Source: Burkholderiaceae bacterium (GTDB lineage Bacteria; Pseudomonadota; Gammaproteobacteria; Burkholderiales; Burkholderiaceae_C). From it: a stretch of DNA of 64,000 bases. The stretch is taken from contig CAKKRJ010000002.1 of NCBI GenBank assembly GCA_919902775.1, positions 320,245 to 384,244 of the forward strand, given 5' to 3'. A program made the position numbers and the translations under genes. The stretch's first letter is position 1, and every line of letters starts with the position of its first letter. Of this stretch, positions 15,001 through 53,621 are shown piece after piece. Below the pieces are notes generated by a model. That model saw nothing but the letters and a program-made list of their open reading frames with translations. It had not been told where the DNA came from and made no database searches.

Positions 15001-15139
15001 GGTGGAGTTGACGGGTGGTGGCTGGTCGGACACCACCGTGGACACCACGGTGACAGGCTTGACAGGCACCTTCTCTGTTTACCAGAACAGCACCAAGAAC
15101 ATTTATGTTCTGGTGGATGCCACAGCGAGCCTGACTTAA
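2..15139 (+). CDS. Giant RTX / FG-GAP / Ig-like repeat protein, 5' end outside window
   Basis: The frame is open from the left edge, so the true start is upstream; 5045 residues are visible. From nt 1 to about 8560, nonapeptide RTX repeats (GGxGxDxL, Ca2+-binding beta-roll) alternate with about eleven roughly 120-residue modules of the type 'NIExIDLTGxGxNTL...DVxALS...V.GD.GDxVxLxGxW'. Next come FG-GAP/integrin-like repeats (about 8590-9800), roughly four Ig-like domains of SbsA/Big_5 type (about 9815-11460), FG-GAP repeats, an RTX module (about 12200-12690), more FG-GAP repeats and a final RTX module (14570-15130). At least fourteen D-x-(N/D)-x-DG-x-x-D loops are visible. The C-terminus is short and uncharged (ends VDATASLT), as in type I secretion substrates. 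The exporter genes follow 3 bp downstream, so this is probably their substrate: a secreted surface adhesin, matrix or S-layer-like protein. No catalytic domain is recognised in the visible part; the N-terminus could hold one. Confidence 0.9.
361..1311 (+). repeat. 711-bp tandem duplication inside the RTX gene
   Basis: The stretch around 361-600 recurs almost unchanged at about 1072-1311, an offset of 711 bp (237 codons, so in frame). Similarity extends leftward through the RTX repeats (about 200-360 against 911-1071). The first 60 bases of the window resemble the same unit again, suggesting that further copies lie upstream. The near identity at DNA level indicates recent duplication of a whole RTX-plus-linker unit, unlike the diverged modules after nt 1500. 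Confidence 0.8.
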
Positions 15140-18359: not shown

Positions 18360-18396
18360 CCCTTCCTTTTTACAAGACCTTAGGTCAGGAGAAACC

Positions 18397-38635: not shown

Positions 38636-39859
38636 ATGAACTCTGCGCCCACGACCCCAGCCATGCGGGGCTCCAACCATGTCGGGATGCGCCAGTTCAA
38701 TGAACGCATCGTGCTGCAGGCGATCCGCCACCACGGCGCCATCCCCAAGGCCGACCTGGCCCGCCTGACCCAGCTGTCCACCCAAACCGTGGCCATCATC
38801 GTGGGGCGCTTGCTGGACGACGGCTTGCTGCTCAAGCAAGACCGGGTGCGGGGCAAGATCGGTCAGCCTTCGGTGCCGCTGTCGCTCAACCCGCAAGGCG
38901 CGTTCAGTGTGGGCATCCAGGTGGGGCGGCGCAATCTGGAACTGCTGGTGGCCGATTTCACCGGCAAACCTGTGGAGCGGGTGGAAGTACTGTACGACTA
39001 CCCCGACCCGGATGGGCTGTTCCAGTCGATGGCGCAAGGCCTGCACACCCTGCAAGAGCGCATGGGGCCTTTGTGGTCACGCACTGTGGGCGTGGGCCTG
39101 ACGGCACCTCTGTCGCTGCACAAATGGGCCGACCTGCTGGGCGGTCAGGCCGCACAGGCGCTGGCCCGCTGGGAACACATCGATTTACCGGCCCGTGTGC
39201 AGGCCCTGACCGATTTGCCGGTGGTGTTTGCCAAAGACACCACCGCCGCTTGCGTGGCCGAGTTGCTGCAAGGCCATGGCCGCAGCGTGCGCAGTTTTCT
39301 CTATGTTTTTGTCGGCACCTTCATTGGCGGTGGTTTGGTGCTGTCCGGCCACATCATGAACGGCGAGCGCGGCAACGCCGGGGCCATTGGCTCGTTGCCG
39401 GTGGGCTTGGCGTCCAGCGTGAAAAAAGAGACGGGCATGCCGCCGCAGTTGCTGCAAAAAGCCTCGGGCTGGCAGTTGGAGCAAGCCTTGCTCGCGGCGG
39501 GTCACGACCCGTTGCTGATCCACCAGGACAGCATCATGGACGCGGCCTATGCCGGATTCACCACGCCGTGGATCGCCCAAGCCAGTCAGGCGCTGGCCAT
39601 GACGGTGGCCAGTTCTGCCGCTTTGCTCGATCTGGACGCGGTGGTGATGGACGGCTCGCTGGGCGCGCCCCTCATGACCGCGCTGATGGCCGCCACGCAA
39701 GAGGCGCTGGCCGGGTACCGCTTTGACGGCATGCACCAGCCGCAACTGCTGGCGGGCCAGGTGGGCGCACATGCCCGTGCTTTGGGGGGCGCTTTGCTGC
39801 CCCTGCACAGCCAGTTTTTCCCGGACAAAGACATCTTTCTGAAGCAGGACAACCCATGA
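38636..39859 (+). CDS. ROK-family transcriptional regulator of the sugar locus
   Basis: A 407-residue ROK repressor. An N-terminal winged helix (about 18-80, NERIVLQAIRHHGAIPKADL ... VAIIVGRLLDDGLL) precedes a sugar-kinase-like ROK domain (about 90-390, VGVGLTAPLS, VFVGTFIGGGLVLSG, GERGNAGAIG). The Cys-rich zinc motif common in ROK proteins is not evident, so zinc may be absent. It probably senses the imported sugar and binds the AGTAAA/TTTACT dyad at 37311-37331. Analogous FrcR-type ROK regulators accompany fructose transporters in rhizobia. The stop overlaps the aldolase start (ATGA). Confidence 0.88.
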   Translation: MNSAPTTPAMRGSNHVGMRQFNERIVLQAIRHHGAIPKADLARLTQLSTQTVAIIVGRLLDDGLLLKQDRVRGKIGQPSVPLSLNPQGAFSVGIQVGRRNLELLVADFTGKPVERVEVLYDYPDPDGLFQSMAQGLHTLQERMGPLWSRTVGVGLTAPLSLHKWADLLGGQAAQALARWEHIDLPARVQALTDLPVVFAKDTTAACVAELLQGHGRSVRSFLYVFVGTFIGGGLVLSGHIMNGERGNAGAIGSLPVGLASSVKKETGMPPQLLQKASGWQLEQALLAAGHDPLLIHQDSIMDAAYAGFTTPWIAQASQALAMTVASSAALLDLDAVVMDGSLGAPLMTALMAATQEALAGYRFDGMHQPQLLAGQVGAHARALGGALLPLHSQFFPDKDIFLKQDNP

Positions 39860-40527
39860 AGTTTTACCTCGATTCCGCTGACGCCCGCCAATGGGCGCTG
39901 CCCGCAGGTTGCCCACCCGTGCAAGGCGTGACCACCAACCCCACGCTGGTGATGCAAGCGGGTTTGCCGGTCAGCCTGCCGGGCTATCTGCAACTGGTGG
40001 CGCAAGCCGGTGAGGCGCGCGTGCCTGAGTTGATGCTGCAACTGCCCCGCGCCGATGTGGGCGAAGCTGCGCAATGGCTGGAAGTGTTGCTGCCCGCCGC
40101 CGTGCAGGCCCGGGTGCGCTTGACCATCAAACTGCCTTGCCACCCCGACTGGCAGCCCGTGCTGCGCGAGGTGCAGGCCTGGGGCGTGCCCACCTTGCTG
40201 ACCGGCTTGTCCAACCCGGTGCAACTGCTGTGGGCCCGGGCGCAAGGGGCCAACTTTGTGGCGCCCTATGTGGGCCGCCTGCAAGCCGACGGGCGCGATG
40301 TCTGGTCACTGATCGACGCCTGCGTGGCCGTGCAGGCCGACGGCCTGCAATTGCTGGCCGCCAGCATCAAGTCGGCCGATGTGCTGTCCCGCCTGATCGC
40401 CTGCGGAGCCCACGCCGTCACGGTGCGCCCCGAGTTCGCAGCCGGCCTGGCCACCGATCCGCTCACACTGGCGGCGATGGCGCAGTTTGACCGGGATGTG
40501 CAAGCGAGCCAGAACGCCGTCTTGTAG
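39856..40527 (+). CDS. Transaldolase-like / fructose-6-phosphate aldolase family protein
   Basis: A class I aldolase of the small transaldolase family, 223 residues. MKFYLDSADAR and GVTTNPTLV mark the N-terminus. RLTIKLPC carries the expected Schiff-base Lys, and the later LLAASIKSADVLSRLIACGAHAVTV matches the family's GA.S(I/L)R region. Members cleave fructose 6-phosphate to dihydroxyacetone and glyceraldehyde 3-phosphate or act as transaldolases. Coupled by ATGA to the ROK regulator, it would take the product of the kinase at 34303-35235 into central metabolism. Family relatives are often 212-220 residues, so it is full length. Confidence 0.82.
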   Translation: MKFYLDSADARQWALPAGCPPVQGVTTNPTLVMQAGLPVSLPGYLQLVAQAGEARVPELMLQLPRADVGEAAQWLEVLLPAAVQARVRLTIKLPCHPDWQPVLREVQAWGVPTLLTGLSNPVQLLWARAQGANFVAPYVGRLQADGRDVWSLIDACVAVQADGLQLLAASIKSADVLSRLIACGAHAVTVRPEFAAGLATDPLTLAAMAQFDRDVQASQNAVL

Positions 40528-40982: not shown

Positions 40983-42089
40983 TCAATCGAGGTCATCTGT
41001 GGGCTCGGGTCGATGCCCCTCGAACGCATGCTGCAACAGCAAACGGACTTGGGCCCGCTGCGCTTTGCCAATCGGCCGGGGATTGCTGTAGGGGTTGCTG
41101 ACGGCGATGTCGGTCGCTTGGTCCAAATCATGCTCTTGCATCCCAATGTCGCGCAGGGCAACCGGGGCACCGTGGGCTTGGGCCAAATCAAAGAGCGCGC
41201 TGGGCGCAAACTTGCCGCCACTTTGGTGGGCGTCACCCTGCATGGCTCGACTTATTTCCTCCATGGCCTCGGGGACATATCGCGCATTGAATGCCAAGGC
41301 ATGCGGAAGGATAACGGTGTGTACGTCTGCGTGCGGCAGGTTGAAGCTGCCCCCCAAGGTGTGGCATAGCTTGTGGTGCAAGGCCATGCCCACATTGCCC
41401 AGCACAGTGCCGCACAGCCACGCACCATACAACGCACGTGAGCGCGCTTGCAGGTCGACGGCGTTGCGATGGAGTGCAGGAATGGCATTGGTCAGTGCCG
41501 CAATGCCTTCCCGTGCCATAAGGCTCATCACGGGGTTGCGGTCCTGGGCATACAGGCCTTCGGCGGCATGGGCGATGGCATTCATGGCGCTGGTGATGCT
41601 GATGTGCAGTGGCAGACTGGTGGTGAGTTCGGGATCGTAGATCACGGTCTTTGGCAGCACGCGCGCGTCGCGCCCGGTTTTCTTCAGACCGCCTTCCGTC
41701 AAGCCGTAGATGGGCGTCATCTCGCTGCCCGCATAGGTCGTCGGAATAGCCAGGATTGGCAAACCAGAGTCCAGCGCAATGGCTTTTCCCAATCCCGTGG
41801 TAGAGCCTCCACCTACGGCAATGGCGCAGTCTGCCCCCTGGCGCTGTGCAAAGTCCCGGGCTTCGCGTGCCGTCTCCATCGGAACATGCATCTGCGCACG
41901 GGGGAAGATGCCACCGGCTCGATTCCCCAGGATGTCGGCAATCTGTTCCGCCAGCGGCAGCTGTTCGGGTGTACAGAGCACCAGAACACGCTGGGCACCC
42001 AGCACATCGACCTCGCGCTCCAGATGCTGGATGGCGCCGCAACCAAACACGACGCGACTGGGCTGACCGTTGTAGACAAAGGAGTGCAT
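40983..42089 (-). CDS. Maleylacetate reductase
   Basis: Iron-type alcohol dehydrogenase family, 368 residues, predicted to reduce maleylacetate to 3-oxoadipate with NAD(P)H. It starts MHSFVYNGQPSRVVFGCGAI, typical of MacA/ClcE/TfdF. The dinucleotide region is CAIAVGGGSTTGLGKAIAL, followed by IPTTYAGSEMTPIYG, and His-rich GMALHHKLCHTLGGSFNLPHADVH is split over the metal site. ATG 42089 is chosen because it begins the family N-terminus; a longer frame runs into the CoA-transferase gene. It is the last gene of the operon and completes the hydroxyquinol lower pathway with the dioxygenase at 43480-44313. It ends 30 bp from the duplicated amiC fragment. Confidence 0.92.
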   Translation of the reverse strand: MHSFVYNGQPSRVVFGCGAIQHLEREVDVLGAQRVLVLCTPEQLPLAEQIADILGNRAGGIFPRAQMHVPMETAREARDFAQRQGADCAIAVGGGSTTGLGKAIALDSGLPILAIPTTYAGSEMTPIYGLTEGGLKKTGRDARVLPKTVIYDPELTTSLPLHISITSAMNAIAHAAEGLYAQDRNPVMSLMAREGIAALTNAIPALHRNAVDLQARSRALYGAWLCGTVLGNVGMALHHKLCHTLGGSFNLPHADVHTVILPHALAFNARYVPEAMEEISRAMQGDAHQSGGKFAPSALFDLAQAHGAPVALRDIGMQEHDLDQATDIAVSNPYSNPRPIGKAQRAQVRLLLQHAFEGHRPEPTDDLD

Positions 42090-42114
42090 GGCTATGTACC
42101 TGGGAAATGCAAGG

Positions 42115-42774
42115 TCAACGCGGCGCTGATGGGCGCGCAATGGGCAGGCTGATGAGTGACTGAAGGTCGCAGAGCGCAAGCCCATCGACCAGATCGATGA
42201 CTTGCAAACCGTTGGGGCCACAAGCCAGGGTGCCGAGGTCGGAATAAATGCGCTTGACGCAAGCCATGCCGGTCAAAGGATAGGTGCATGCCCGAACCAG
42301 TTTGCTTTCTCCGTTCTTGGCCAGCAGCTCCATCATCACCCAGGTCTGCTTGGCCCCCAGGGCCAGGTCCATGGCACCGCCCACGGCGGGAATTGCACCC
42401 GGTTCACCGGTATGCCAATTGGCCAGATCGCCGGTCTCGGAAACCTGGAACGCCCCCAGCACGCAAATGTCCAGATGGCCGCCACGCATCATTGCGAAGC
42501 TGTCGGCATGATGAAAGAAGGCGCCGCCAGGAAGCAGACTCACCGGTTGCTTGCCCGCATTGATCAGGTCGAAGTCTTCATGGGCAGGATCAGGACTGGG
42601 CCCCATGCCAAGAATGCCGTTTTCGCTGTGCAAAACCACGTCGATATCGGTCGCAATGTAGTTTGCCACCAGCGTCGGCATGCCGATGCCGAGGTTGACA
42701 TACGCACCATCATGGATATCGGCAGCCACACGTTGGGCAATCTCGGCCTTGCTTCGTCTTGGGCAGTCAGGCAT
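42115..42774 (-). CDS. 3-oxoacid (3-oxoadipate) CoA-transferase subunit B
   Basis: Beta subunit of a class I CoA-transferase, 219 residues. The active-site Glu is in HSENGILGMGP, preceded by VNLGIGMPTLVANYI and followed by GGAMDLALGAKQ. With subunit A it would convert 3-oxoadipate and succinyl-CoA to 3-oxoadipyl-CoA (PcaJ role), the step after maleylacetate reductase in this operon. ATG 42774 overlaps the end of subunit A by 8 bp. Acetoacetate-type (AtoA/ScoB) transferases look alike, so substrate choice rests on context. Confidence 0.92.
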   Translation of the reverse strand: MPDCPRRSKAEIAQRVAADIHDGAYVNLGIGMPTLVANYIATDIDVVLHSENGILGMGPSPDPAHEDFDLINAGKQPVSLLPGGAFFHHADSFAMMRGGHLDICVLGAFQVSETGDLANWHTGEPGAIPAVGGAMDLALGAKQTWVMMELLAKNGESKLVRACTYPLTGMACVKRIYSDLGTLACGPNGLQVIDLVDGLALCDLQSLISLPIARPSAPR

Positions 42775-43483
42775 GGCGGGCTTTCTGAGGCTGGGCAAAC
42801 CCGCCCGCTTGCGTGGCGACGCGCGGGATTCGCACAATTTTTGATACATAGATGCCCGGTGTGACAATGTGCTCGGGGTTCAGCTCGCCCAAGGCGGCAA
42901 TGTGATGGACGGTTGCCACGGTGCGTGTGGCCGCAGTGGCCATCACCGGACCAAAGTTGCGGGCGGCTTTGCGGTAGATCAGATTGCCCCAGCGGTCACC
43001 TATTTCTGCCTTGACCAAAGCCAGATCTCCGTGAATCGGATGCTCCAGCACATGCATGCGGCCGTTGATTTCTCGCGTTTCCTTTCCGAGCGCCAATGCG
43101 GTGCCGTAGCCGGTTGGGGAGAAAAAAGCGCCTATGCCGGCGCCTGCAGCCCGGATGCGCTCGGCCAAGTTGCCTTGTGGGACCAGCTCCAGCTCCAGTT
43201 TGCCGCTGCGGTACAGCGCGTCAAATACATGGGAGTCGGCTTGCCGGGGAAAGCTGCAGACGATTTTTCGGACTCTTCCGGTCTTGAGAAGCGCCGCCAA
43301 TCCTCGGTCGCCGTTGCCCGCGTTGTTGTTCACCACGGTCAGGTCTTTGGCACCTTGCTCCATCAAGCCAGCAATCAATTCGTCAGGGACACCCGCGGTG
43401 CCAAATCCACCGATCAATACGGTCGCACCATCTGGGGTACCGACCAAGGCGTCTGCAAGGGACTGGGCGACTTTATTGATCAT
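42767..43483 (-). CDS. 3-oxoacid (3-oxoadipate) CoA-transferase subunit A
   Basis: Alpha subunit of the class I CoA-transferase, 238 residues. It has the CoA-binding VLIGGFGTAGVPDELI near the N-terminus, then LTVVNNNAGNGDRGLAALL and GAGIGAFFSPTGYGT, as in PcaI. ATG 43483 overlaps the dioxygenase stop (ATGA), and its stop overlaps subunit B, so the three are translationally coupled. No 3-oxoadipyl-CoA thiolase lies in the cluster; the last step to succinyl-CoA and acetyl-CoA would need a thiolase elsewhere in the genome. Confidence 0.92.
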   Translation of the reverse strand: MINKVAQSLADALVGTPDGATVLIGGFGTAGVPDELIAGLMEQGAKDLTVVNNNAGNGDRGLAALLKTGRVRKIVCSFPRQADSHVFDALYRSGKLELELVPQGNLAERIRAAGAGIGAFFSPTGYGTALALGKETREINGRMHVLEHPIHGDLALVKAEIGDRWGNLIYRKAARNFGPVMATAATRTVATVHHIAALGELNPEHIVTPGIYVSKIVRIPRVATQAGGFAQPQKARHA

Positions 43484-44313
43484 GTCCGCTTGTCGGCAAG
43501 AACAAAATCGCAATCCAGGCAATAACTGCCGTCGGCCTGAGGCGTCCAATCCTTGATCAAGGTCTCGCGCACGCCAAAGACCGCGTCTGAATCGAGGTAG
43601 GGGTCGCCATCGCGAAAGATGTGGGTGATCAGGGTTTCAAAGCCAGGGGCTTTGATCATGAAGTGCAAGTGCGCGGGGCGCCAGGGGTGGCGACCGGTGG
43701 CGCTCAACATCGCACCGACTGGTCCGTCGTGGGGAATCGGGTAAGGCGCCGCCAAAATGGACTGGAAGTGAAATGCCCCATTGGTATCGGCATTCAAGAT
43801 GCCGCGACCCTGGGCATGGGTCAGGTCGCCGCGCTGCACGTCGTACAGCCCCTCATCGTCTGACTGCCACACTTCGATATGGGCGCCTGCAATCCCTGTG
43901 CCGTCCAGGTTCTTGACCGTGCCTGTGACTTTGCAGGGAATCCCTTTGGCGCCATTGGCCACATCGCCGCCCAGCGCATAGTGGGGAGCATTGTCGGTGT
44001 GGAACGGACCGAACACGGTGGCCTCAGTACAGCCCTTAGGTTTGTCGTTGTTCATGGCAACCGTCAGCATTGACAGGCCCAGCACATCGGAAAAGAGAAT
44101 GAACTCTTGGCGCACGTCATTGGTGATGTGGCCCACGCCGGTCAAAAACGCGATGCCTTGACTCCATTCGATCTCGGTCAGCTTGACGTCCCGTGCAAAG
44201 GCATGCAAGTGCCGCACGAGCGCGTCCATGATCTCCTTGAGCCGAGCATCTGGCGTGCCCGCAAAACTCTGCCGCACGGCATCGGTGATGTTGTCTTGGT
44301 TGAGGTTTCTCAT
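43480..44313 (-). CDS. Hydroxyquinol 1,2-dioxygenase (intradiol ring cleavage)
   Basis: Non-haem Fe(III) intradiol dioxygenase of 277 residues. An N-terminal helical dimerisation region (about 1-95) precedes the catalytic beta-sandwich. Expected iron ligands are Tyr in DEGLYDVQ, Tyr in AAPYPIPHDGPVG, and two His in HPWRPAHLHFMI. Sequence style (TEATVFGPFHTDNAP, HIFRDGDPYLDSDAVFGVR) fits hydroxyquinol rather than catechol or protocatechuate enzymes. The maleylacetate reductase in the same operon supports this, because that enzyme is needed only when the product is maleylacetate (hydroxyquinol) or a chlorinated analogue. Start ATG 44313; a longer frame reaches 44370. Chlorocatechol cleavage is the main alternative. 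Confidence 0.88.
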   Translation of the reverse strand: MRNLNQDNITDAVRQSFAGTPDARLKEIMDALVRHLHAFARDVKLTEIEWSQGIAFLTGVGHITNDVRQEFILFSDVLGLSMLTVAMNNDKPKGCTEATVFGPFHTDNAPHYALGGDVANGAKGIPCKVTGTVKNLDGTGIAGAHIEVWQSDDEGLYDVQRGDLTHAQGRGILNADTNGAFHFQSILAAPYPIPHDGPVGAMLSATGRHPWRPAHLHFMIKAPGFETLITHIFRDGDPYLDSDAVFGVRETLIKDWTPQADGSYCLDCDFVLADKRT

Positions 44314-44344
44314 ACGGTTCTTCGGCTCCTCGTCAAGGCACGGT

Positions 44345-45910
44345 CTACCACTCGCCAATGATGACGCCACCGGCTGCAGCTGGATTGGCGCGACGCATGA
44401 TGTCTTCGTCAGAAATCGTCACCCGGTTGCGGCGGCTGCGCATCCAGTCAAAGATCCAGCCCAGATGCTCATCGCGGACCGTGCTGTAGCCCGGATCTCG
44501 CCCCAGGTCGTGCAGCTCCTGCGGGTCTTGCTGCATGTCAAACAGCTGCGCAGGGAAGCCGTCGTAATGGATGTATTTGAAGCGCTCGCTGCGGGCCATC
44601 ACCATGCGCGCCTTGTTGGGTTGGAGCTTCAGGTTTCGGGCGGCGCCATAGATGGCATAGTCCAGCTCCGAGATGGCCACTTCCCGCACGCTGGTTTTCT
44701 CGCCTTTCAGCAGGGGCTGCAGTGACTTGCCCTCCAGCCAATGCCATGGCACGGGCAGGCCCTGGCTTTCCAGAAAGGTGGGAAGCAGGTCAATGGCCTC
44801 CACCAGCGCCTGGCTGGTGGTGCCATGGGTCTGCGGTGCGCTCGGGTCGGCAATGATCATGGGAATGCGCACGCCCTGCTCGAACATGAACTCCTTCTCG
44901 CCCAGCCAATGGTCGCCCAGGTAGTCGCTGTGGTCGGCGGTGAAGACAATCAGGGTGTTGTCCATCAAGCCCCTTGCCTGCATGAACGCAAAGAGTTGGC
45001 CCAAGTAGTCGTCCACCTGTTTGACCAGCCCCATGTAGGCAGGAATCACGTTGAGTCGGTCCGCATCGCGCGAGAAAGCTCGGCCTTCGGGATGCTGGCG
45101 AAACCCGGCATACACCGGGTGGTCATTGTCACGTTCGTGCGCGGCGCGGATGGGGGCCTGCACATCGTCCGCACCGTAGAGCTTGTGGTACGGCGCCTGC
45201 GCGATGTACGGCCAGTGTGGCTTGATGTAGGACAGATGCAGCATCCAGGGCTTGTCACCCTGCTCAGTCATGAAATCCATGGCGCGGTGCGTCATGTAGG
45301 CCGTTTCGCTGTGCTCATCGGGCACACGGGTGGGCAAATGGGCGTTGCGGTAGTACCAACCGCTGGCTATCTGGCCTTGCGCATCGACGCCCGCATTGGC
45401 CCAGGTGTGCCAGGGGTTGTCCCCGGTCATACCGTGGCTGCGCAGGTACTCGTTGTAAGCCAACTTGGGGTCCACCTTGCTGTCGGGGTGTATGCCATCG
45501 TCCCGCTCGTACGGCTCAAACCCCGCTTCGGCAACGTATTTGCCTTGTGCACTGTCGGTAGGCAAGAGCATGCGCGTGAGTCCATCGCGGTCGGCGTACA
45601 TGTGGGTCTTGCCCACCACCGCCACCCGCATGCCAGACGCGCGCAGGTGGTCGCCCATGGTTTGCTCGCCGAGCGGCAGGGGGATGAAGTTCCAGGTGGC
45701 GCCGTGCGAAAACACATAGCGGCCGGAATAAAACGAGGCGCGCGACGGTCCGCAGTTGGGCGACTGGCAGTACGCGCGGTCAAACTTCACCCCACGCTTG
45801 GCAATGCCGTCAATGTGGGGCGTTGCCAGCGTTTTGTGCCCATAGCATGACAAGTAATCTGCGCGAAGCTGGTCGCACATGATGAAGAGGATGTTTTTGG
45901 GCTTGGCCAT
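44345..45910 (-). CDS. Sulfatase / phosphonate monoester hydrolase family enzyme
   Basis: Alkaline-phosphatase-superfamily ester hydrolase of 521 residues. The formylglycine site is Cys53 in SPNCGPSRASFYSGR (C-x-P-S-R), metal ligands begin with IMCDQLRAD, and TADHSDYLGDHWLGEKEF carries the later Asp/His/Lys set. The Cys form of the site means an aerobic formylglycine-generating enzyme must exist elsewhere. There is no signal peptide, so it acts in the cytoplasm, like PMH-type arylsulfatases and choline sulfatases. It lies 4 bp after the solute-receptor gene and 31 bp before the ring-cleavage gene. Its place in the operon suggests removal of a sulfate ester from the aromatic substrate or intermediate; phosphonate or phosphodiester substrates remain possible. 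Confidence 0.88.
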   Translation of the reverse strand: MAKPKNILFIMCDQLRADYLSCYGHKTLATPHIDGIAKRGVKFDRAYCQSPNCGPSRASFYSGRYVFSHGATWNFIPLPLGEQTMGDHLRASGMRVAVVGKTHMYADRDGLTRMLLPTDSAQGKYVAEAGFEPYERDDGIHPDSKVDPKLAYNEYLRSHGMTGDNPWHTWANAGVDAQGQIASGWYYRNAHLPTRVPDEHSETAYMTHRAMDFMTEQGDKPWMLHLSYIKPHWPYIAQAPYHKLYGADDVQAPIRAAHERDNDHPVYAGFRQHPEGRAFSRDADRLNVIPAYMGLVKQVDDYLGQLFAFMQARGLMDNTLIVFTADHSDYLGDHWLGEKEFMFEQGVRIPMIIADPSAPQTHGTTSQALVEAIDLLPTFLESQGLPVPWHWLEGKSLQPLLKGEKTSVREVAISELDYAIYGAARNLKLQPNKARMVMARSERFKYIHYDGFPAQLFDMQQDPQELHDLGRDPGYSTVRDEHLGWIFDWMRSRRNRVTISDEDIMRRANPAAAGGVIIGEW

Positions 45911-45914
45911 GGCA

Positions 45915-46880
45915 TCACTCGAGTTTGAGACCGAGTTTGCGAACCACGGGCGTCCAGCGCTCGGTTTCATCGCGAACCCGTTTGGCGGCTTCTTCAGGGC
46001 CCATCCCCACAGGGGTGGCATCAATGACCGCGAGTTTTTCGCGGATCTCTGGCACGGCCAGGGCGTTGTTGACTTCGCTGTAAATGCGCTGCATCACTTC
46101 GGGCGGCGTGCCCTTGGGAACGTACAGCATTTCGGAAAAGGTGGCATCAAAGTTGGGCACGCCTGCCTCCTGCATGGTGGGCACTTGCGGTACAAGGTTG
46201 GAGCGCTTGCGGCCCGACATGGCCAGACCGGTCAAACGCCCCGCCTTGACATGGGGCGCCACCGCATTGGTCACCAAAAAAGCACAGGCCACCTGGCCGG
46301 CCAACAAATCCTGCGCGGCAGGCGCTGGGCCCTTGTAGGGCACATGAACCATTTGCGTGCCGCTGGCCGCCAGGTACATCTCCATCACCAAATGGCCTGG
46401 CACACCCACACCGCCGGATGCATAGTTCAGCGATTTGGTCTTGGCCAGCGCCGTCAACTCTGCCACCGACTTGACGCCAACCGAGGGGTGGCACACCAGC
46501 ATCTGGCTGAAGGTCACCAAGGTGGTCAGGGGCACCAGGCTATCGGGCTTGAAATTGAGTTTTCCATAGACCAAGGGGTTGATCGAAAAGATGGTGTCCG
46601 GGCCTTCGAGCACCGTGTAGCCATCGGGAGCCGCATTGGCCACGGTCTCAGCGCCGACGTTGCCACCGGCACCTGGCTTGTTCTCGACCACCATGACTTG
46701 GCCCAAGCCATTGCCGACACGCTCACCAATGGTGCGCAGCGTCACATCGCCTGGGGTTCCTGGCGGAAAGGCGACCATCATTCTCACGGGTCGGGTGGGC
46801 CAGGTCTGCGCGTGCGTTTGGCTGGAAAATGTCAATGCAGCGGCGATGGCAATGCCACTCAAAAGGATTGGACGTTTCAT
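45915..46880 (-). CDS. Bug/TctC-family periplasmic solute receptor (operon)
   Basis: A 321-residue extracytoplasmic receptor with a signal peptide (MKRPILLSGIAIAAALTF, cut after THA). It has the Bug-family motifs WPTRPVRMMVAFPPGTPGDV, VVENKPGAGGNVGAETV and HVPYKGPAPAAQDLL. Family members bind small carboxylates, often aromatic acids (for example TphC for terephthalate). No TctA/TctB membrane genes are present, as usual for these orphan receptors, so it must use a shared tripartite permease or act as a sensor. It points to an aromatic carboxylate as the pathway substrate. The usual GG in the first loop is PG-T-PG here. Confidence 0.92.
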   Translation of the reverse strand: MKRPILLSGIAIAAALTFSSQTHAQTWPTRPVRMMVAFPPGTPGDVTLRTIGERVGNGLGQVMVVENKPGAGGNVGAETVANAAPDGYTVLEGPDTIFSINPLVYGKLNFKPDSLVPLTTLVTFSQMLVCHPSVGVKSVAELTALAKTKSLNYASGGVGVPGHLVMEMYLAASGTQMVHVPYKGPAPAAQDLLAGQVACAFLVTNAVAPHVKAGRLTGLAMSGRKRSNLVPQVPTMQEAGVPNFDATFSEMLYVPKGTPPEVMQRIYSEVNNALAVPEIREKLAVIDATPVGMGPEEAAKRVRDETERWTPVVRKLGLKLE

Positions 46881-46909
46881 GGTGATTCCCCGGTTGGTGG
46901 TGGTTGGGT

Positions 46910-47746
46910 TCAGATCGTCACGCCACCGTCGACATTTATCACCTGACCGGTGATGTTGGTCGCTGCAGCGGAACTCAAAAAGACAACGATGTCTGCAACG
47001 TCGTCAAGGGTTTGGGGACGCAACATGGGCACATGCTGCGCAATGCGCGCATCAAACACAGCGCGGGCTTCGTCCATCCTGATGGGCGCATCGGTGTCGT
47101 TTTGGGCATGTGCACGCATCTTTTTGCCAAGCGACTCCCACATGGGTGTCCAGATGAAACCCGGACACACCGCATTCACACAGACGTGCTGAGGCGCCAG
47201 ATCGCGCGCCAATACCTTGGACAGTGAAATCAAGGCCGCCTTGGAAACACTGTAGGGGGGCATGTAGGCTGCGGATATCACGCCGGTGATGGACGATATA
47301 TTGACGATGCGCCCCTGGTCCGAATTGAGTAATGCCAGCCGACTTGCATTGCAGACATGCACAGCGCCCATGAGGTTGATCGCCAGCGTGCGCTCCCAGT
47401 CCTGCTCGCTGTTGTTCGTAAATGGCATGCCCGGGGCCGATGCAACCCCTGCGCCGTTCACCACAATGTCCAGACGCCCAAAGCGCTCGAGAACAGCCGC
47501 AACAGTTGCTTTGACTGTCTGGGCATGAGCGATGTCACAAGAAAAGCCCGCAGCGCTCGCGCCAGCGGCACGCATCGCTTGCGCGGTGTCTTCGGCCGCT
47601 TCGCCATTCACGTCCAGCACGGCCACGCCAGCGCCTTGTACGGCCAACGCCAAGGCGCTGGCGCGGCCGATGCCGGCACCGCCTCCGGTCACCAGCGCAA
47701 TGCGGCCATCCAGACGCAGACGCTGTGCCAGACCAGAGGCGTTCAA
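46910..47746 (-). CDS. Short-chain dehydrogenase, probable cis-dihydrodiol dehydrogenase
   Basis: NAD(P)-binding SDR of 278 residues. The cofactor motif is ALVTGGGAGIGRASAL, followed by NGAG, catalytic Ser in VNISSITG, YSVSK (Tyr and Lys), PGF and C-terminal GQVINVDGG. TTG 47746 is chosen because it overlaps the beta-subunit stop as TTGA and gives a normal N-terminus (LNASGLAQRLRLDGRIALVT); the frame upstream lies inside the beta gene. Directly after a Rieske dioxygenase, it would oxidise the cis-dihydrodiol to a catechol-type product, in a BenD-like role with decarboxylation if the substrate is a benzoate. Biochemistry is inferred from position. Confidence 0.87.
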   Translation of the reverse strand: MNASGLAQRLRLDGRIALVTGGGAGIGRASALALAVQGAGVAVLDVNGEAAEDTAQAMRAAGASAAGFSCDIAHAQTVKATVAAVLERFGRLDIVVNGAGVASAPGMPFTNNSEQDWERTLAINLMGAVHVCNASRLALLNSDQGRIVNISSITGVISAAYMPPYSVSKAALISLSKVLARDLAPQHVCVNAVCPGFIWTPMWESLGKKMRAHAQNDTDAPIRMDEARAVFDARIAQHVPMLRPQTLDDVADIVVFLSSAAATNITGQVINVDGGVTI

Positions 47747-48270
47747 AAGAAGATCCCCAGGTTCTTCTGTGTCACGACTGATTGATCCAGAATGATGTCG
47801 CGTCGGCAAATCAGCCAGCTGTCACCCTGGGGGCGCAGGTAGTCCTCGCGGTAGCCCCCGAAAATTTCCAGGTCATATTCCAGATGTGAGCGATAAATGA
47901 GGAAGTTGGATCGGATGCGGACCACGCCTTCATCCATCAACTCCATGACTTCAACATTGGTCACAAGATGGCGTGTGCGCGATGGCGGGGTTTCAGACCA
48001 AGCCATGCCCGTATCCAGGCGCCTGACCCGGTTGCTGAGGCTGGTCTTGTTCTCGTCAAAGTGTGCCACTTGGCCATAGGTGCTGATTTCTTTGCCTTGG
48101 TCACGGCCAGTGCGGTTGGTGACCAGCGGCATCCAGTAACGCACGTCATCGCTGAACAGTGCCACCCATTCTTCCAGGTGCTGGTCATCCATCAAACGCG
48201 CTTCATGCGTGAGGAAGGCCTGCACCCTGAACCAAAGCCCCATGTCCATATTTGCTGCTGCTTTGCTCAT
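47743..48270 (-). CDS. Ring-hydroxylating dioxygenase beta subunit
   Basis: Small structural subunit of a Rieske dioxygenase, 175 residues, NTF2-like fold. Typical features are ARLMDDQHLEEWVALFSDDV, YWMPL, SRTRHLVTNVEV and a C-terminal GDSWLICRRDIILDQS. ATG 48270 follows a GAAAGAAGA ribosome site and lies 10 bp after the alpha-subunit stop. Beta subunits accompany alpha3-beta3 oxygenases such as benzoate, toluate, anthranilate and terephthalate dioxygenases. Its stop overlaps the SDR start (TTGA). Confidence 0.93.
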   Translation of the reverse strand: MSKAAANMDMGLWFRVQAFLTHEARLMDDQHLEEWVALFSDDVRYWMPLVTNRTGRDQGKEISTYGQVAHFDENKTSLSNRVRRLDTGMAWSETPPSRTRHLVTNVEVMELMDEGVVRIRSNFLIYRSHLEYDLEIFGGYREDYLRPQGDSWLICRRDIILDQSVVTQKNLGIFF

Positions 48271-48280
48271 GATTCTTCTT

Positions 48281-49603
48281 TCAGCTACAAGCTTTACGCG
48301 ACATATCGGGCACCGACGGTGCCGTGGCATCGTCCATCATCTTGGCCCAGTGTCGATAAAACCCGCGTTGGTTGATCTCGGACTGAAAACGGCCCAACTT
48401 GCCACGGATATCGGGGTGAATGCTGCTGGGGTCGGTGATTTCATCGCCCAACCCCATCTCCAGGTTTTGTGGATAACGGCGTGCCACGTAACCCTCGCTT
48501 GACGAATGACACTGCACCCAGTTGTCCACATCGTCCGCTTCCCAGGTGCCACTCGTGCCGTGGCGCTGCAGCATGTGCAGACCCTTCTCGCGCTTGTAGT
48601 CATCTGGTGCCGCCTTGTCGACAAAAACCCAACCCCAGGCTTCGGTCAATTTGGGGCCTTTGGGGTGCCAGACACGAATCGCACCGCCCTGCCAGAGCAA
48701 GGACACATTCGGGAATATGGAGGCGTGCATGGGCGAAAAATGCAGACCACGCAATTCACCCAAGCGTTGAATCGATTCATCCAAGCGCATCTTTTCGTAG
48801 TCCCTGAATTCCGGCAGAGACATCTCAAAAACTTCTTCTTTGTTGGCCGCCCAACGCGTGCCAAAACCATGGCCGCCGCCCGGGTTGACCTGAAAACCCT
48901 CGTAGCCGTAACCGCTCTTGCGCAGGGGCATGCCTTCAAAGCCAGACACCCAGGCCGATTTGTGACTGACAGGGCCGTGGTAGCTGTCGCCAATGAAGTT
49001 GTCGACGGGGAATTTCCAGTTCGTGTGGACCAGCCACTTGTGCGTACCGGGCAAAAATTCAATTCCCCCTTCACGCCGATCCAAGATCATGTCAAGGTAC
49101 CAGGCCATGTCACCCAGGTAGTCCTCCAAAGTGGGGGCGTTGTTGTCAAAGGTGGCAAACAGCAAACCCTTGTAGCTGGCGATTTTGGCAACCGGAACCA
49201 GACCATGGGCCTCAATATCAAGCTTTTCCAGGTAGATTTCCTTGAATCCGGGGACGTTGCTCAAGCGCCCATCATTGGAAAAAGTCCAGCCGTGAAACGG
49301 GCAAGAGAACGCTCTCGCATTGCCTGAGTCAGCTCGGCACACGCGGTTGCCCCGGTGCCTGCACATATTGAGGTAACACCCAATCGTGCCATCCGCTTTG
49401 CGGGTCACGATCACGGGATCGCGCCCCATGTAGGTGGTGAAAAAGTCATTGACCTTGGGCAGCATCGACTCGTGCCCCAGCAAGAGCCAACACTTCGCAA
49501 AAATCCGCTCCAACTCCAGCTCAAAGGTTTCAGGATCAGAAAAGATGTTGCGATTGATGTCGCCCTTGGTCAAATCAATCAGGTGTTCAAAATGTGATTT
49601 CAT
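48281..49603 (-). CDS. Ring-hydroxylating dioxygenase alpha subunit (Rieske, mononuclear iron)
   Basis: Catalytic subunit of 440 residues. The Rieske [2Fe-2S] ligands are Cys81 and His83 (MCRHRGNRVC) and Cys101 and His104 (SCPFHGW). The mononuclear iron site is DNFIGDSYHGPVSH, giving bridging Asp206 and ligands His209 and His214, with a final acidic ligand around 356-359 (EADDVDNWVQ). It would insert both atoms of O2 into an aromatic ring, using electrons from the reductase encoded immediately upstream. The motif set and the presence of a beta subunit place it with benzoate/terephthalate-like enzymes; the exact substrate cannot be read. It starts 30 bp after the reductase. Confidence 0.94.
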   Translation of the reverse strand: MKSHFEHLIDLTKGDINRNIFSDPETFELELERIFAKCWLLLGHESMLPKVNDFFTTYMGRDPVIVTRKADGTIGCYLNMCRHRGNRVCRADSGNARAFSCPFHGWTFSNDGRLSNVPGFKEIYLEKLDIEAHGLVPVAKIASYKGLLFATFDNNAPTLEDYLGDMAWYLDMILDRREGGIEFLPGTHKWLVHTNWKFPVDNFIGDSYHGPVSHKSAWVSGFEGMPLRKSGYGYEGFQVNPGGGHGFGTRWAANKEEVFEMSLPEFRDYEKMRLDESIQRLGELRGLHFSPMHASIFPNVSLLWQGGAIRVWHPKGPKLTEAWGWVFVDKAAPDDYKREKGLHMLQRHGTSGTWEADDVDNWVQCHSSSEGYVARRYPQNLEMGLGDEITDPSSIHPDIRGKLGRFQSEINQRGFYRHWAKMMDDATAPSVPDMSRKACS

Positions 49604-49632
49604 CCCGCCTTACCTCAACGTTTGTTAATCAA

Positions 49633-50589
49633 TCAGATGTCCAGCACCAGCCGTTCACCCCGGGCCCGAGAAACGCAAGCCATCAACACTTGGTGGCTTG
49701 CTTTGTCTTCGGGACTGAGGATTTGGTCGCGGTGGTCCACTTCACCCTCCAGGACGGCGCACTCACAGGATCCGCACACGCCTTCGCGACAGACCGACGG
49801 GAGGACAACGCCACAGGTTTCAAGCGCCTCAAGAATGGATTGGTGTGCAGCGACGTCAACCGTCTTGCGTTTGCGGGCAAGTTCGACCACAAACGGGCGG
49901 TTATCTTGTGTTGGGCCCCGAGGGTTTCCGCCAAACGACTCAAAGTGAAGGTGGTCGGACGGATGGCCTGCAGCCAGTTCACGCACTTTTTCCATCAGAC
50001 CGAGCGGACCGCAGCAGTAAATGTGCGTTTGCGGGGAAATGTCGACCAGCACCCCGTGCAGGTCCAGCGCCCGACCATGGTTTTCGTCGTCGAAGTGGAA
50101 TCGGACATGGTCGGCAAATGCCGCAAGTTCCGTGGCATACGCCGCACCGGCACGGCTGCGGGCCGCGTACACCATGTCCCAGGGCAATTCTTGGCGCAAG
50201 CGCTGCATGGCCATCGCCAGCAGCGGCGTAATGCCGATGCCACCGGCAATCAGCACCGCCGGAGCCGGGTCATCCACCAGCGCGAACAGATTTCGCGGGG
50301 TGCCCACCGTCAAGACCTGGCCCAGTGCCAAGTTGTGGTGAACATAGCTTGAGCCCCCCCTGCTGCAGGCGGCCAGACCGACTGCCACGACATACCGCGA
50401 CTGCGACTCCAAGGAACCCGCCTGCGTGAGTGAATAGGCGCGTGTTTGCCCGTTGGGAAGATGCAGGTCGATGTGGGCGCCAGGAGTGCTTTTTGGTAAT
50501 AACCCTTGGTTTTCAGCAACCAGAGTGACTTCCACCACGCCACTGGCAACGGACCTGAGTTGATGAACAATGACCTGGACGGTTTGCAA
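49633..50589 (-). CDS. Phthalate-dioxygenase-reductase (VanB) type oxidoreductase
   Basis: Electron-transfer partner of the Rieske oxygenase, 318 residues. The order is an FMN-binding barrel (TRAYSLTQAGS), an NAD-binding domain (IAGGIGITPLLAM, IYCCGPLGLMEKV) and a C-terminal plant-type [2Fe-2S] domain (CREGVCGSCECAV, then HQVLMAC). The start is placed at TTG 50589 with AGAGGA 8 nt upstream. It gives the usual family length, whereas an ATG at 50667 would lie within the -35 of the operon promoter. First gene of the operon, divergent from the LysR gene. This reductase class usually serves alpha-only oxygenases, so its pairing with an alpha/beta oxygenase is less common. Confidence 0.9.
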   Translation of the reverse strand: MQTVQVIVHQLRSVASGVVEVTLVAENQGLLPKSTPGAHIDLHLPNGQTRAYSLTQAGSLESQSRYVVAVGLAACSRGGSSYVHHNLALGQVLTVGTPRNLFALVDDPAPAVLIAGGIGITPLLAMAMQRLRQELPWDMVYAARSRAGAAYATELAAFADHVRFHFDDENHGRALDLHGVLVDISPQTHIYCCGPLGLMEKVRELAAGHPSDHLHFESFGGNPRGPTQDNRPFVVELARKRKTVDVAAHQSILEALETCGVVLPSVCREGVCGSCECAVLEGEVDHRDQILSPEDKASHQVLMACVSRARGERLVLDI

Positions 50590-50638
50590 CTGATTTTCCT
50601 CTGAGGTCCAAAGAATTGACGGTGTTTGAATGGAGTGA

Positions 50639-50694
50639 AGATTAGAATTTGCAATGACCGAGGTCAAGAAAACCTTTGATTCGAGAGATAACTA
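50639..50694 (-). promoter_or_regulatory. Promoter of the aromatic operon with LysR-type sites
   Basis: On the minus strand TTGACC (50667-50662), a 17-bp spacer and TAATCT (50644-50639) form a good sigma70 promoter. Its expected start near 50632 leaves about 43 nt of leader before the TTG start at 50589. ATT-N9-AAT at 50641-50655 fits the T-N11-A pattern of LysR proteins and overlaps the -10. A second imperfect dyad (TTCGAGAGATAA, about 50680-50692) lies near -50 to -60, where LysR activators usually bind. Confidence 0.55.
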
Positions 50695-50704
50695 AAAGTT
50701 TTCA

Positions 50705-51610
50705 ATGAAACTGAACCAGATCAAGGCGCTGATTGCCATTGCGGAGACGGGAAGCATCCGCGCTGCTGCGCGAAAAATTGGATTGACGCAGCCGGCATTG
50801 AGCAAGAACTTGCAGGCGCTGGAGGAAGAGTTGAGTGTTCGACTCGTGCACAGAACAGCGCGGGGAGTGAACCTCACCACCTATGGCCAGGCCATCCTCG
50901 CGAGGGGGCGCGGTATTGCTATCGAGTTTGAGCGTCTGCGGGAAGAGATTGAGCACATGCGGGGCGCGCAGAACGGCACCCTGTCCATTGCCGTATCACC
51001 TAGCCCTGCCATGCTGTTGTTGCCGCCGGCCATGAGGCGTTTTCGGCAAGCGTTTCCGTCGATTCAGGTGTGTGTGCGCGATGGCGTGTACCCCAATACC
51101 TTGCAACTCTTGCGAGAGGGCCTGGTGGACATGTCGGTGGGGGCGCATCCTCCGCTTGCAAAGAGCACGCTGGCGGAGTTTCAAGTGGAAACGCTGTACG
51201 AGAACAAATTGGTCGTGACGTGCCGCAAAGGCCATCCCCGTGCCAACGCCAAGTCTTTGACAGAATTGCTTGACTGTGAATGGTTGATACACGGCCCAAC
51301 TGAAGGGCCTGGTTCTTTGCATACCCCGGCATTTCGTGCCAATGGCATCCCCTTGCCGAGTCCGCTTGTTGTGTCCGAATCGTTTATTTCATCACTGAGT
51401 CTGCTGGAAAACTCCGATGCGCTGTGCCTTCTGCCGGCGCGCCTGATTGAGCACTTGAGTTTGGCGGGGCGGTTGATGGCGCTCAAGCTCAAAGAGCCCA
51501 TGCCGGACTGGGATGTGTCGCTGATCACCCGTGTTCAAAGCCCGTTGACACCCGTCGCGCAAAAAATGGTAGAAATTTTCAGGCGAACTCGACCCATGAA
51601 CTTTGCCTAA
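50705..51610 (+). CDS. LysR-family transcriptional regulator of the aromatic cluster
   Basis: A 301-residue LysR protein. The N-terminal winged helix (MKLNQIKALIAIAETGSIRA, then AARKIGLTQPALSKNLQALE) is followed by a linker helix and a two-lobed effector domain from about residue 90 (GTLSIAVSPSPAMLLLPPAM). It is divergent from the reductase gene with a 115-bp shared control region, the standard layout for an activator of an aromatic operon that responds to the substrate or an intermediate. It is the last island gene; 60 bp without a recognisable feature separate it from the amiC stop. Confidence 0.93.
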   Translation: MKLNQIKALIAIAETGSIRAAARKIGLTQPALSKNLQALEEELSVRLVHRTARGVNLTTYGQAILARGRGIAIEFERLREEIEHMRGAQNGTLSIAVSPSPAMLLLPPAMRRFRQAFPSIQVCVRDGVYPNTLQLLREGLVDMSVGAHPPLAKSTLAEFQVETLYENKLVVTCRKGHPRANAKSLTELLDCEWLIHGPTEGPGSLHTPAFRANGIPLPSPLVVSESFISSLSLLENSDALCLLPARLIEHLSLAGRLMALKLKEPMPDWDVSLITRVQSPLTPVAQKMVEIFRRTRPMNFA

Positions 51611-51670: not shown

Positions 51671-51890
51671 TCAAATGGACCGATACCGCGCCAACGGCGG
51701 GTTGCGTGAGAAGTACTGCAGGATGCCGCGCATGAGGGCGTCGGTGAGTTGCTTTTGGTAGGCCTCGCTGCCCAGTTTTTCTTCTTCTTCGGGGTTGCTG
51801 ATGAAGGCGGTCTCGACCAGCACGCTGGGGATTTCGGGGGCTTTGAGCACGGCGAAACCGGCTTGTTCAACCCGGGGTTTGTGCAGGCGG
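51671..51890. repeat. Right 220-bp direct repeat (native amiC 3' end)
   Basis: This is the copy inside the complete amidase gene, matching 40733-40952 at 217 of 220 positions. One edge coincides exactly with the amiC stop codon. Confidence 0.93.
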
Positions 51891-53074
51891 CCCACGCTGC
51901 CGATTTCGCGCAACAAACTGCCGCCCAGTTGCAGGCTGTCCTTGATTTGTGCGGCGGTGCTCATGTCCAGCAGGGCGCGTTGGACCTGTGCGTCCTGGCT
52001 GCCCAGGTTGATGCCTCCGATCAGGTCGGCCTTGTTTTCTTTTTGTGCCATCCAGCGGGCAGCACTGCTGGAGGCCGCGCCCTGGCTGAGCGCAAACACG
52101 CTGGCGCCGCTGGCCTGGGGCGTGAAAAACGCATCGGCATGGATGCTGACGAACAGATCGGCCTGCACGCGGCGGGCTTTTTGCACCCGCACTTGCAGCG
52201 GCACAAAAAAATCGGCGTCGCGCGTCATGTAGGCCCGCATGGGGCTGCCGTTGACGCTGCTGGCGTTGATGCGGTCGCGCAGCATTTTGGCGATTTTCAG
52301 CACCACGTCTTTTTCGCGCGTGCCACCGGGGCCCACGGCGCCGGGGTCTTCGCCGCCGTGGCCGGGGTCCAGCGCGATCACGATCAGGCGGTCGGTTGCG
52401 CTGGGGGTGTCGGTTCTGGGGGGATGGTCCGGACGGTCCATGGATGCCCCCGTAGACGGCAGGTGGGGCAGGTGGTCCTGGCGGCGGGTGGATTGCGCCG
52501 GCACCGGCAAGGCCGCGGTACTGTGCCTGGTTTGCCGGGCGATCAGCTCGCCCAAGGGATCGTTCACCGCCGCAGTGGGGGGCGGCAGGCCGGCGGTGGG
52601 GGTGGGTGCCTTGGCCGTGGCCCGCTCCTGGATCAGTTGCTCCAACGGATCAATGGCTTCGCTGGGGTAAAGGTCGAGCACCAGCCGGTGGGCATAAGGG
52701 GCCACTGGTTGCAGGGTGAAGACTTGCGGTGCGATGGGCCGTTTCAGGTCGATCACCAGGCGCACCACGTTGGCATTGAACTGGCCGACGCGGATCCCTG
52801 CGATGTTGGGGTCCGAGGCTTGCACTTTGCCGACCAACTCGCGCAACGCCGCGTTCAGCTGCAACCCCTCAATGTCCACAGCCAGTCGGGGGGGCGAGGC
52901 GATGAAGGTCTGGGTGGTTTTCAGCGGAGCGTCCGATTCCAGCGTGACCCGGCTGTAGTCGGGCGCAGGCCAGATGCGCACCGCCAGCATGCTGGCGCCG
53001 CGCACCAGATGCGAGGCCCCCAGGCCCAGTGCCAACAGACCCGCCTGAACCACACGGCGGCGATCAACCCGCAT
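51671..53074 (-). CDS. amiC: N-acetylmuramoyl-L-alanine amidase with AMIN domain
   Basis: Periplasmic zinc amidase for septal peptidoglycan splitting, 467 residues. ATG 53074 gives MRVDRRRVVQAGLLALGLGA, a twin-arginine-like signal as in E. coli AmiC, and overlaps tsaE by 11 bp. The AMIN domain (about 30-150) targets the septum. A Pro/Thr-rich linker leads to the Amidase_3 catalytic domain: IALDPGHGGEDPGA (His ligand), a Glu in GGTREKDVVLKIA, SIHADAF (His) and the catalytic Glu in VLVETAFISNPEEE. Its 3' end is duplicated at 40733-40952, the far side of the aromatic island. It forms an operon with tsaE, as in many betaproteobacteria. Confidence 0.95.
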   Translation of the reverse strand: MRVDRRRVVQAGLLALGLGASHLVRGASMLAVRIWPAPDYSRVTLESDAPLKTTQTFIASPPRLAVDIEGLQLNAALRELVGKVQASDPNIAGIRVGQFNANVVRLVIDLKRPIAPQVFTLQPVAPYAHRLVLDLYPSEAIDPLEQLIQERATAKAPTPTAGLPPPTAAVNDPLGELIARQTRHSTAALPVPAQSTRRQDHLPHLPSTGASMDRPDHPPRTDTPSATDRLIVIALDPGHGGEDPGAVGPGGTREKDVVLKIAKMLRDRINASSVNGSPMRAYMTRDADFFVPLQVRVQKARRVQADLFVSIHADAFFTPQASGASVFALSQGAASSSAARWMAQKENKADLIGGINLGSQDAQVQRALLDMSTAAQIKDSLQLGGSLLREIGSVGRLHKPRVEQAGFAVLKAPEIPSVLVETAFISNPEEEEKLGSEAYQKQLTDALMRGILQYFSRNPPLARYRSI

Positions 53075-53621
53075 GGGGTGCACCCTCCCGCCACGACCGC
53101 AGCCAGCCTTGGCCGCGTGCGGTGCCCGCGCTGATGCGCACTCGGCGCTGGTCTTCATCAACGGCGTCCAGCGCGATCACCCAGTCGGGCGGTGGCAGTT
53201 GCCCGGCCACCTTGTCGGGCCACTCCATGAGCTTGAGGCCGGGCCCGGCAAAGATGTCCCGGAAACCGGCGTCTTCCCATTCCTGGGGGTCATTGAAGCG
53301 GTAAAAATCAAAATGCCAGATGGGCCAGGCGCTGTCGCCTGTGCCCGCCTGGTGTGGCTCGACCACGGCATAAGTCGGGCTTTTGATGCGGCCTAAGACC
53401 CCGGCTGCACGCAGCAAATGGCGCACCAGGGTGGTTTTGCCCGCGCCCAGGTTGCCGCGCAATTCGATGCAGGCATCGCGTCCGCCCGGCCAGGTGGTCA
53501 GGGCGTGTGCCAGCTGTTGGGCAAAGGCTTGCGTGGCGGCCTCATCGGGCCACAAGCCCTGCCAAACGGCGGCGGCGGCGGGGGTTTCTACAATCGGCGG
53601 GTGACTGCTGAACGTACTCAA
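53064..53621 (-). CDS. tsaE: tRNA threonylcarbamoyladenosine biosynthesis ATPase TsaE
   Basis: P-loop ATPase needed for t6A formation at tRNA A37 with TsaB/D/C. Visible motifs are Walker A GNLGAGKTTLVRHLLRA, SPTYAVVEPH, the FDFYRF box and LMEWPDKV. The start is uncertain: TTG 53621 gives 185 residues with AAGAAG upstream, while a longer frame to 53684 lies inside the oppositely oriented queG gene. Even the short form overlaps queG's 5' end by 21 bp. It overlaps amiC at its 3' end. Confidence 0.92.
   Translation of the reverse strand: MSTFSSHPPIVETPAAAAVWQGLWPDEAATQAFAQQLAHALTTWPGGRDACIELRGNLGAGKTTLVRHLLRAAGVLGRIKSPTYAVVEPHQAGTGDSAWPIWHFDFYRFNDPQEWEDAGFRDIFAGPGLKLMEWPDKVAGQLPPPDWVIALDAVDEDQRRVRISAGTARGQGWLRSWREGAPHAG

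Follow-up and report, generated by a model that had tools for sequence, protein, structure and literature searches.

A candidate operon for the degradation of an aromatic sulfate ester via hydroxyquinol in a Burkholderiaceae bacterium

Aromatic sulfate esters are widespread, both as excretion products and as natural products. In the open-licence literature, judged from titles and the starts of abstracts, no paper was found that assigns genes to every step by which an aryl sulfate reaches central metabolism, and searches joining sulfatase with hydroxyquinol, maleylacetate, hydroquinone dioxygenase or Rieske returned no matching pathway paper. The operon discussed here lies in a stretch of 64,000 nucleotides (nt) from a Burkholderiaceae bacterium (order Burkholderiales, family Burkholderiaceae_C in the GTDB lineage of the source; assembly GCA_919902775.1, contig CAKKRJ010000002.1, positions 320,245 to 384,244 of the forward strand); this whole stretch is called the window, and all positions refer to it. 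Several described systems resemble parts of the operon. With BenABCD and XylXYZL it shares the general outline of an oxygenase, a reductase and a short-chain dehydrogenase/reductase (SDR) followed by intradiol cleavage, with HcaEF and BphA a Rieske supergroup, and with the tph operons for terephthalate a Bug receptor beside a Rieske system. The hydroquinone clusters (HqdAB/PnpCD, semialdehyde dehydrogenase, maleylacetate reductase) have homologues of its maleylacetate reductase and hydroxyquinol dioxygenase, whereas the operon has a Rieske dioxygenase and an SDR in place of HqdAB. Lastly, the SpAS1-type arylsulfatases (4upi, 4upl) share the CxPxR motif, K101 and H103 with its sulfatase, which differs from them in being set in an aromatic-catabolic operon.

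Ten open reading frames (ORFs) lie tightly packed on the minus strand from 50667 to 40983, as determined from the ORF list and domain searches. An earlier note on this DNA had described ten same-strand genes with these domains, and all are present, in an arrangement that goes beyond chance and is partly kept in a Comamonadaceae metagenome-assembled genome (MAG) from a lake. With a probability of about 0.55, the operon breaks down some aromatic sulfate ester via hydroxyquinol. The Bug receptor and a tripartite carrier would import the intact ester, a Rieske dioxygenase served by a reductase of the phthalate dioxygenase reductase (PDR) type would place two hydroxyls on the ring, the SDR would restore aromaticity, and a cytosolic formylglycine arylsulfatase would strip off the sulfate to give hydroxyquinol. 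By homology, hydroxyquinol 1,2-dioxygenase would then open the ring to maleylacetate, which maleylacetate reductase would convert to 3-oxoadipate and the CoA-transferase to 3-oxoadipyl-CoA. Desulfation could come before or after dihydroxylation, and the substrate could carry a carboxylate or be phenyl-sulfate-like.

The lower part of this route is well grounded by homology. The putative hydroxyquinol 1,2-dioxygenase (43480..44313; PF00775, PF04444) scores 312 bits with the hydroxyquinol 1,2-dioxygenase 1tmx, versus 119 with the best catechol dioxygenase and 117 with the best chlorocatechol dioxygenase. Among its NCBIfam matches, which include no hydroxyquinol model, a chlorocatechol model comes first, yet at 169 bits against a cut-off of 359. 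On the bit scores (312 versus 117) a chlorocatechol dioxygenase was rejected, and a grouping with those enzymes, checked in the same way, was not found. Both subunits of the 3-oxoacid CoA-transferase pass the cut-offs of pcaI/pcaJ-family models, subunit A (42767..43483) with 357 bits to TIGR02429 (cut-off 128.5) and subunit B (42115..42774) with 272 bits to TIGR02428 (cut-off 243.6). The protein of the Fe-ADH family encoded at 40983..42089 (PF25137, PF00465) is 59-68% identical to products of genes that adjoin HqdAB and aldehyde dehydrogenase genes in four relative loci (L049, L050, L054 and L058), which supports its assignment as a maleylacetate reductase. The succession of hydroxyquinol, maleylacetate and 3-oxoadipate put forward in the earlier note is thus supported.

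The sulfatase gene (44345..45910; PF00884) encodes a protein that, among solved structures, is most similar to 4upi (580 bits) and 4upl (556 bits), the latter of which we take to be SpAS2, and the matches cover nearly the whole protein. The formylglycine motif (CxPxR/CxAxR) is present as CGPSR, and K101 and H103 do not vary among the 13 aligned rows. 4UPI is SpAS1 of Silicibacter pomeroyi, its primary activity is the hydrolysis of sulfate monoesters, and K101 and H103 set it apart from phosphonate monoester hydrolases, which have Y and T/D at these places (PMC5488252). SpAS1 and SpAS2 are reported to lack choline sulfatase activity (PMC5870055). By its sequence, the window enzyme belongs with the SpAS1-type arylsulfatases; the SpAS1 likeness, CGPSR and the K/H pair support the claim that an arylsulfatase-type enzyme is part of the same tight operon. 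Given that pair, a phosphonate hydrolase is unlikely; the NCBIfam PehA model gives 313 of 900 bits. An FGE-family protein is encoded in the window genome (219 bits). No signal peptide was recognized by eye in the sulfatase N terminus (MAKPKNILFIMCDQL), which makes import of the intact ester probable. The genome has 13 sulfatase-family matches, and four sulfatase-family genes lie within about 25 kb on contig C10 (16336-42610; L001, L002, L003 and L006).

The gene preceding the sulfatase encodes the Bug/TctC-type solute receptor (45915..46880; PF03401), which scores 197 bits with Bug27 (2qpq) and 188 bits with a terephthalate-binding protein (8hka). The likeness to tph operons pointed out in the earlier note therefore holds for the receptor and fails for the oxygenase, as the alpha subunit is not TphA2-like (92 bits to TphA2 7q04 versus 336 to HcaE 8k0a). 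Three TctA genes elsewhere in the genome could serve the receptor.

The upper pathway departs from several described systems. HcaE is the best solved relative of the Rieske oxygenase alpha subunit (48281..49603; PF00355, PF00848), at about 40% identity, and residues C81, H83, C101, H104, D206, H209, H214 and D358 show no variation across the 8 aligned rows. The HcaE model gives 387 of 830 bits and the BenA model 192 bits, both below their cut-offs. In a tree of 25 rows, alpha falls in a fork with HcaE, BphA1 and NdoB (the biphenyl/phenylpropionate/naphthalene supergroup), apart from the XylX fork of benzoate and toluate enzymes. There it has its own clade, which among the matches listed has at least four further members: the lake MAG (L066, 91% identical), L067 (86%), Rhodobacteraceae HTCC2150 (L068, 68%) and the remoter L069 (44%). 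Wider searches gave alpha matches in 16 of 299 family genomes including its own (the others 34-43% identical), in 3 of 300 genomes of the order at E 1e-95, again including its own (the others 45% and 41%), and in its own genome alone among 398 of the phylum at E 1e-100; none of 936 plasmid records reached 60% identity. An AlphaFold prediction for this subunit had a mean pLDDT of 54, too poor for use. The beta subunit (47743..48270; PF00866) passes the cut-off of the HcaF-type model PRK10069 and fails that of HcaF NF042947.

The FNR-type reductase (49633..50667; PF00111, PF00175), whose start is uncertain (TTG 50667 or TTG 50589), scores 205 bits with phthalate dioxygenase reductase (2pia) versus 35 with benzoate dioxygenase reductase (1krh), and has its plant-type [2Fe-2S] ferredoxin domain at the C terminus, unlike the BenC type, which has this domain first. 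By score and domain order it is of the PDR type, which is to our knowledge unusual for an oxygenase of the HcaE/BphA1/NdoB supergroup. None of the ten genes encodes a separate ferredoxin. The SDR (46910..47746; PF13561, PF00106) follows alpha and beta in the window, L066, L067 and L068, and is for this reason probably a dihydrodiol dehydrogenase. It is only 27% identical to XylL and falls outside both the XylL and the HcaB/BphB/NahB clades of the tree, so that neither a BenD-type nor an HcaB-type enzyme is accepted. The operon consequently differs from HcaEFCBD in having its own alpha clade, no HcaC-like ferredoxin gene, a PDR-type reductase instead of HcaD and an SDR that is not HcaB, and from BenABCD/XylXYZL in that alpha, SDR and reductase all lie outside that group. 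In sum, the lower pathway and an arylsulfatase-type enzyme within the operon stand from the overall reading of the earlier note, whereas its benzoate-type upper pathway with a BenD-type SDR finds no support.

Part of the operon recurs in the lake MAG (genome G590). One of its contigs carries the LysR gene, the reductase (58% identical), alpha, beta (71%) and SDR residues 19-219 up to the contig end, and another contig starts with SDR residues 225-299, followed by the Bug receptor (71%) and the sulfatase (79%). This fits one operon that the assembly may have split, and the succession of SDR, Bug receptor and sulfatase is thus kept at 57-79% identity. A third contig has a hydroxyquinol dioxygenase (66%) and a maleylacetate reductase (67%) together. 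Directly after the lake sulfatase lies a gene for a VanA/DdmC-like Rieske oxygenase (L158:2799-3839), so the substrate of the lake bacterium may be methoxylated. Alpha, at 91%, is better conserved between the two genomes than reductase, SDR and beta (58-71%); alpha may be under stronger constraint or may have been exchanged separately. The L067 contig breaks off within the SDR, and neither the sulfatase nor the ring-cleavage enzyme had a match in its bin. This contig is filed under 'Candidatus Fonsibacter lacus' although its cluster is of betaproteobacterial type, with a third-position G+C of about 0.67-0.76 in the cluster genes, and the assignment is probably a binning error.

Relatives of the sulfatase also occur beside hydroquinone genes. 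A survey of 200 family genomes at E 1e-60 found matches in 19, including the window's own, and every locus outside that genome with E below 1e-150, 20 in all, was retrieved together with its flanks. Five of them (L049, L050, L052, L054 and L058) have a sulfatase 49-53% identical to that of the window near HqdB and aldehyde dehydrogenase; the fetched stretches also contain HqdA in four of the five, maleylacetate reductase in four and hydroxyquinol dioxygenase in three. The HqdB of L049 matches PF18191, the N-terminal domain of the hydroquinone 1,2-dioxygenase large subunit. HqdB occurs in 10 of 18 genomes with the sulfatase versus 16 of 199 genomes overall (P 1.3e-8 on the assumption of independent genomes, which does not hold). 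Five further sulfatase genomes (L185-L189) have HqdAB at another place, where the fetched stretch contains no SpAS-like sulfatase. The window genome, about 84% complete, has no HqdB match at E 1e-60. A sulfatase tree was built from 34 of 35 relative loci, L201 being dropped because it yielded no open frame; the branches of two outgroup rows were very long, and some long ends stayed untrimmed in a few rows. It unites the five HqdAB-linked sulfatases in one clade (100/100) and pairs those of the window and the lake MAG (100/99), whereas the joining of these two clades lacks support. In genome G070 (L053:14509-16671 and L190), two SpAS-like sulfatases have as neighbours a P450-reductase-ferredoxin fusion, an SDR resembling coniferyl-alcohol dehydrogenase and an aldehyde dehydrogenase.

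The case for a sulfate ester as the substrate is strengthened by related sulfatases that turn up repeatedly in hydroquinone clusters, and by the kept order of SDR, Bug receptor and sulfatase. Several observations weigh against it. No HqdAB lies beside the sulfatase in 15 of the 20 family loci, nor in any of 11 loci examined in the wider class (10 genomes, with several loci on short contigs), and the link between sulfatase and HqdAB may have arisen only once, as the five linked sulfatases form one clade. In HTCC2150, the stretch fetched around alpha, beta and SDR contains neither a reductase nor a sulfatase match, and three SpAS-like sulfatases (47-49%) are encoded at other places in its genome. 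In the lake MAG the hydroxyquinol dioxygenase is on another contig than the sulfatase, which is followed by the VanA-like gene, and the ring-cleavage genes are therefore placed differently from those of the window. Moreover, dihydrodiol formation and sulfate-ester cleavage are activities only predicted for these particular proteins. Some of these points would also suit a passenger module, in which the sulfatase-Bug pair scavenges sulfate or acts on some other ester and the remaining genes degrade an unsulfated aromatic via hydroxyquinol: a Bug-type gene is present in 12 of the 20 family sulfatase stretches, sulfatases are numerous in the window genome, and HTCC2150 manages without an adjacent one. 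This alternative is considered rather unlikely, because the sulfatase gene lies within the operon, only 4 and 31 nt from its neighbours, follows the SDR and Bug genes in a second genome as well, and has a related clade within hydroquinone clusters.

If a sulfate ester is indeed degraded via hydroxyquinol, the order of the early steps can be drawn in more than one manner. The earlier note proposed an aromatic acid such as 3- or 4-sulfooxybenzoate; dihydroxylation, here taken to occur at C1-C2, would be followed by loss of the carboxylate through a BenD-like SDR, and desulfation of the resulting sulfooxycatechol would give hydroxyquinol. Pathway logic and the relation of the Bug receptor to terephthalate-binding proteins, which take dianionic aromatics, speak for this scheme, but the position of alpha outside the XylX group, the distance of the SDR from XylL and a reductase that is not BenC-like speak against it, and both substrate and step are a conjecture that now appears improbable. 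Alternatively, the sulfatase could act first and free a phenol, which dioxygenase and SDR would convert to hydroxyquinol; in the clusters with sulfatase and HqdAB, desulfation before ring cleavage would suffice if the substrate were hydroquinone monosulfate. The ortho-hydroxylation of phenols, however, is usually carried out by flavin or di-iron monooxygenases and not by Rieske dioxygenases, and the window genome has no HqdB match, so this sequence of events is also judged doubtful. Slightly more credible, although still tentative, is the idea of an aryl-sulfate pathway in which Rieske enzymes of a hitherto undescribed clade dihydroxylate the still sulfated ring, the sulfate serving as a protecting group until the labile triol hydroxyquinol passes straight to the ring-cleaving enzyme, and that the same sulfatase family was separately built into hydroquinone pathways.

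Should the sulfate-ester reading prove true, the operon would supply candidate genes for a whole aryl-sulfate route, the alpha clade or a sulfatase beside HqdAB could serve as markers to find degraders of this kind in lakes and coastal water, and SpAS-type sulfatases would gain a possible physiological role. The operon, together with sulfatases beside hydroquinone genes elsewhere, points to a little-described route of aromatic sulfate recycling.

With start codons picked by comparison with homologues, the junctions from 50667 to 40983 measure 29, 10, -67, 29, 4, 31, -4, -8 and 25 nt. The beta/SDR value of -67 nt becomes about -4 nt if the SDR starts at TTG 47746; owing to this uncertain start it stands apart from the other junctions, which range from -8 to 31 nt. 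The close packing reported earlier is evident, whereas the "many overlapping" genes reduce to overlaps at only three of nine junctions. The border formerly placed at 50704 is the base preceding a divergent LysR-type regulator gene (50705..51610, plus strand; PF03466, PF00126), and the last ORF ends at 50667. LysR genes occupy the same divergent place in L066 (66% identical) and L067 (55%). The nearest genes outside, for a transaldolase/FSA-family protein (39856-40527) on one side and an AMIN/Amidase_3 protein (51671-53161) on the other, have no evident tie to aromatic catabolism. The G+C per kb is 0.55-0.62 in the cluster versus 0.65-0.67 in the flanks, and among sampled genomes of the same genus a strict match was found in 0 of 2 for the sulfatase and 0 of 3 for alpha; taken together, these values fit acquisition of the operon by transfer. 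Farther away in the window, a 5027-aa ORF (56-15139, plus strand) with GGxGxDxL-type repeats at its start appears by eye to encode a giant repeat protein, and the three same-strand ORFs that follow it (641, 433 and 479 aa; 15143-19788, plus strand) resemble, also by eye, a type I secretion system.

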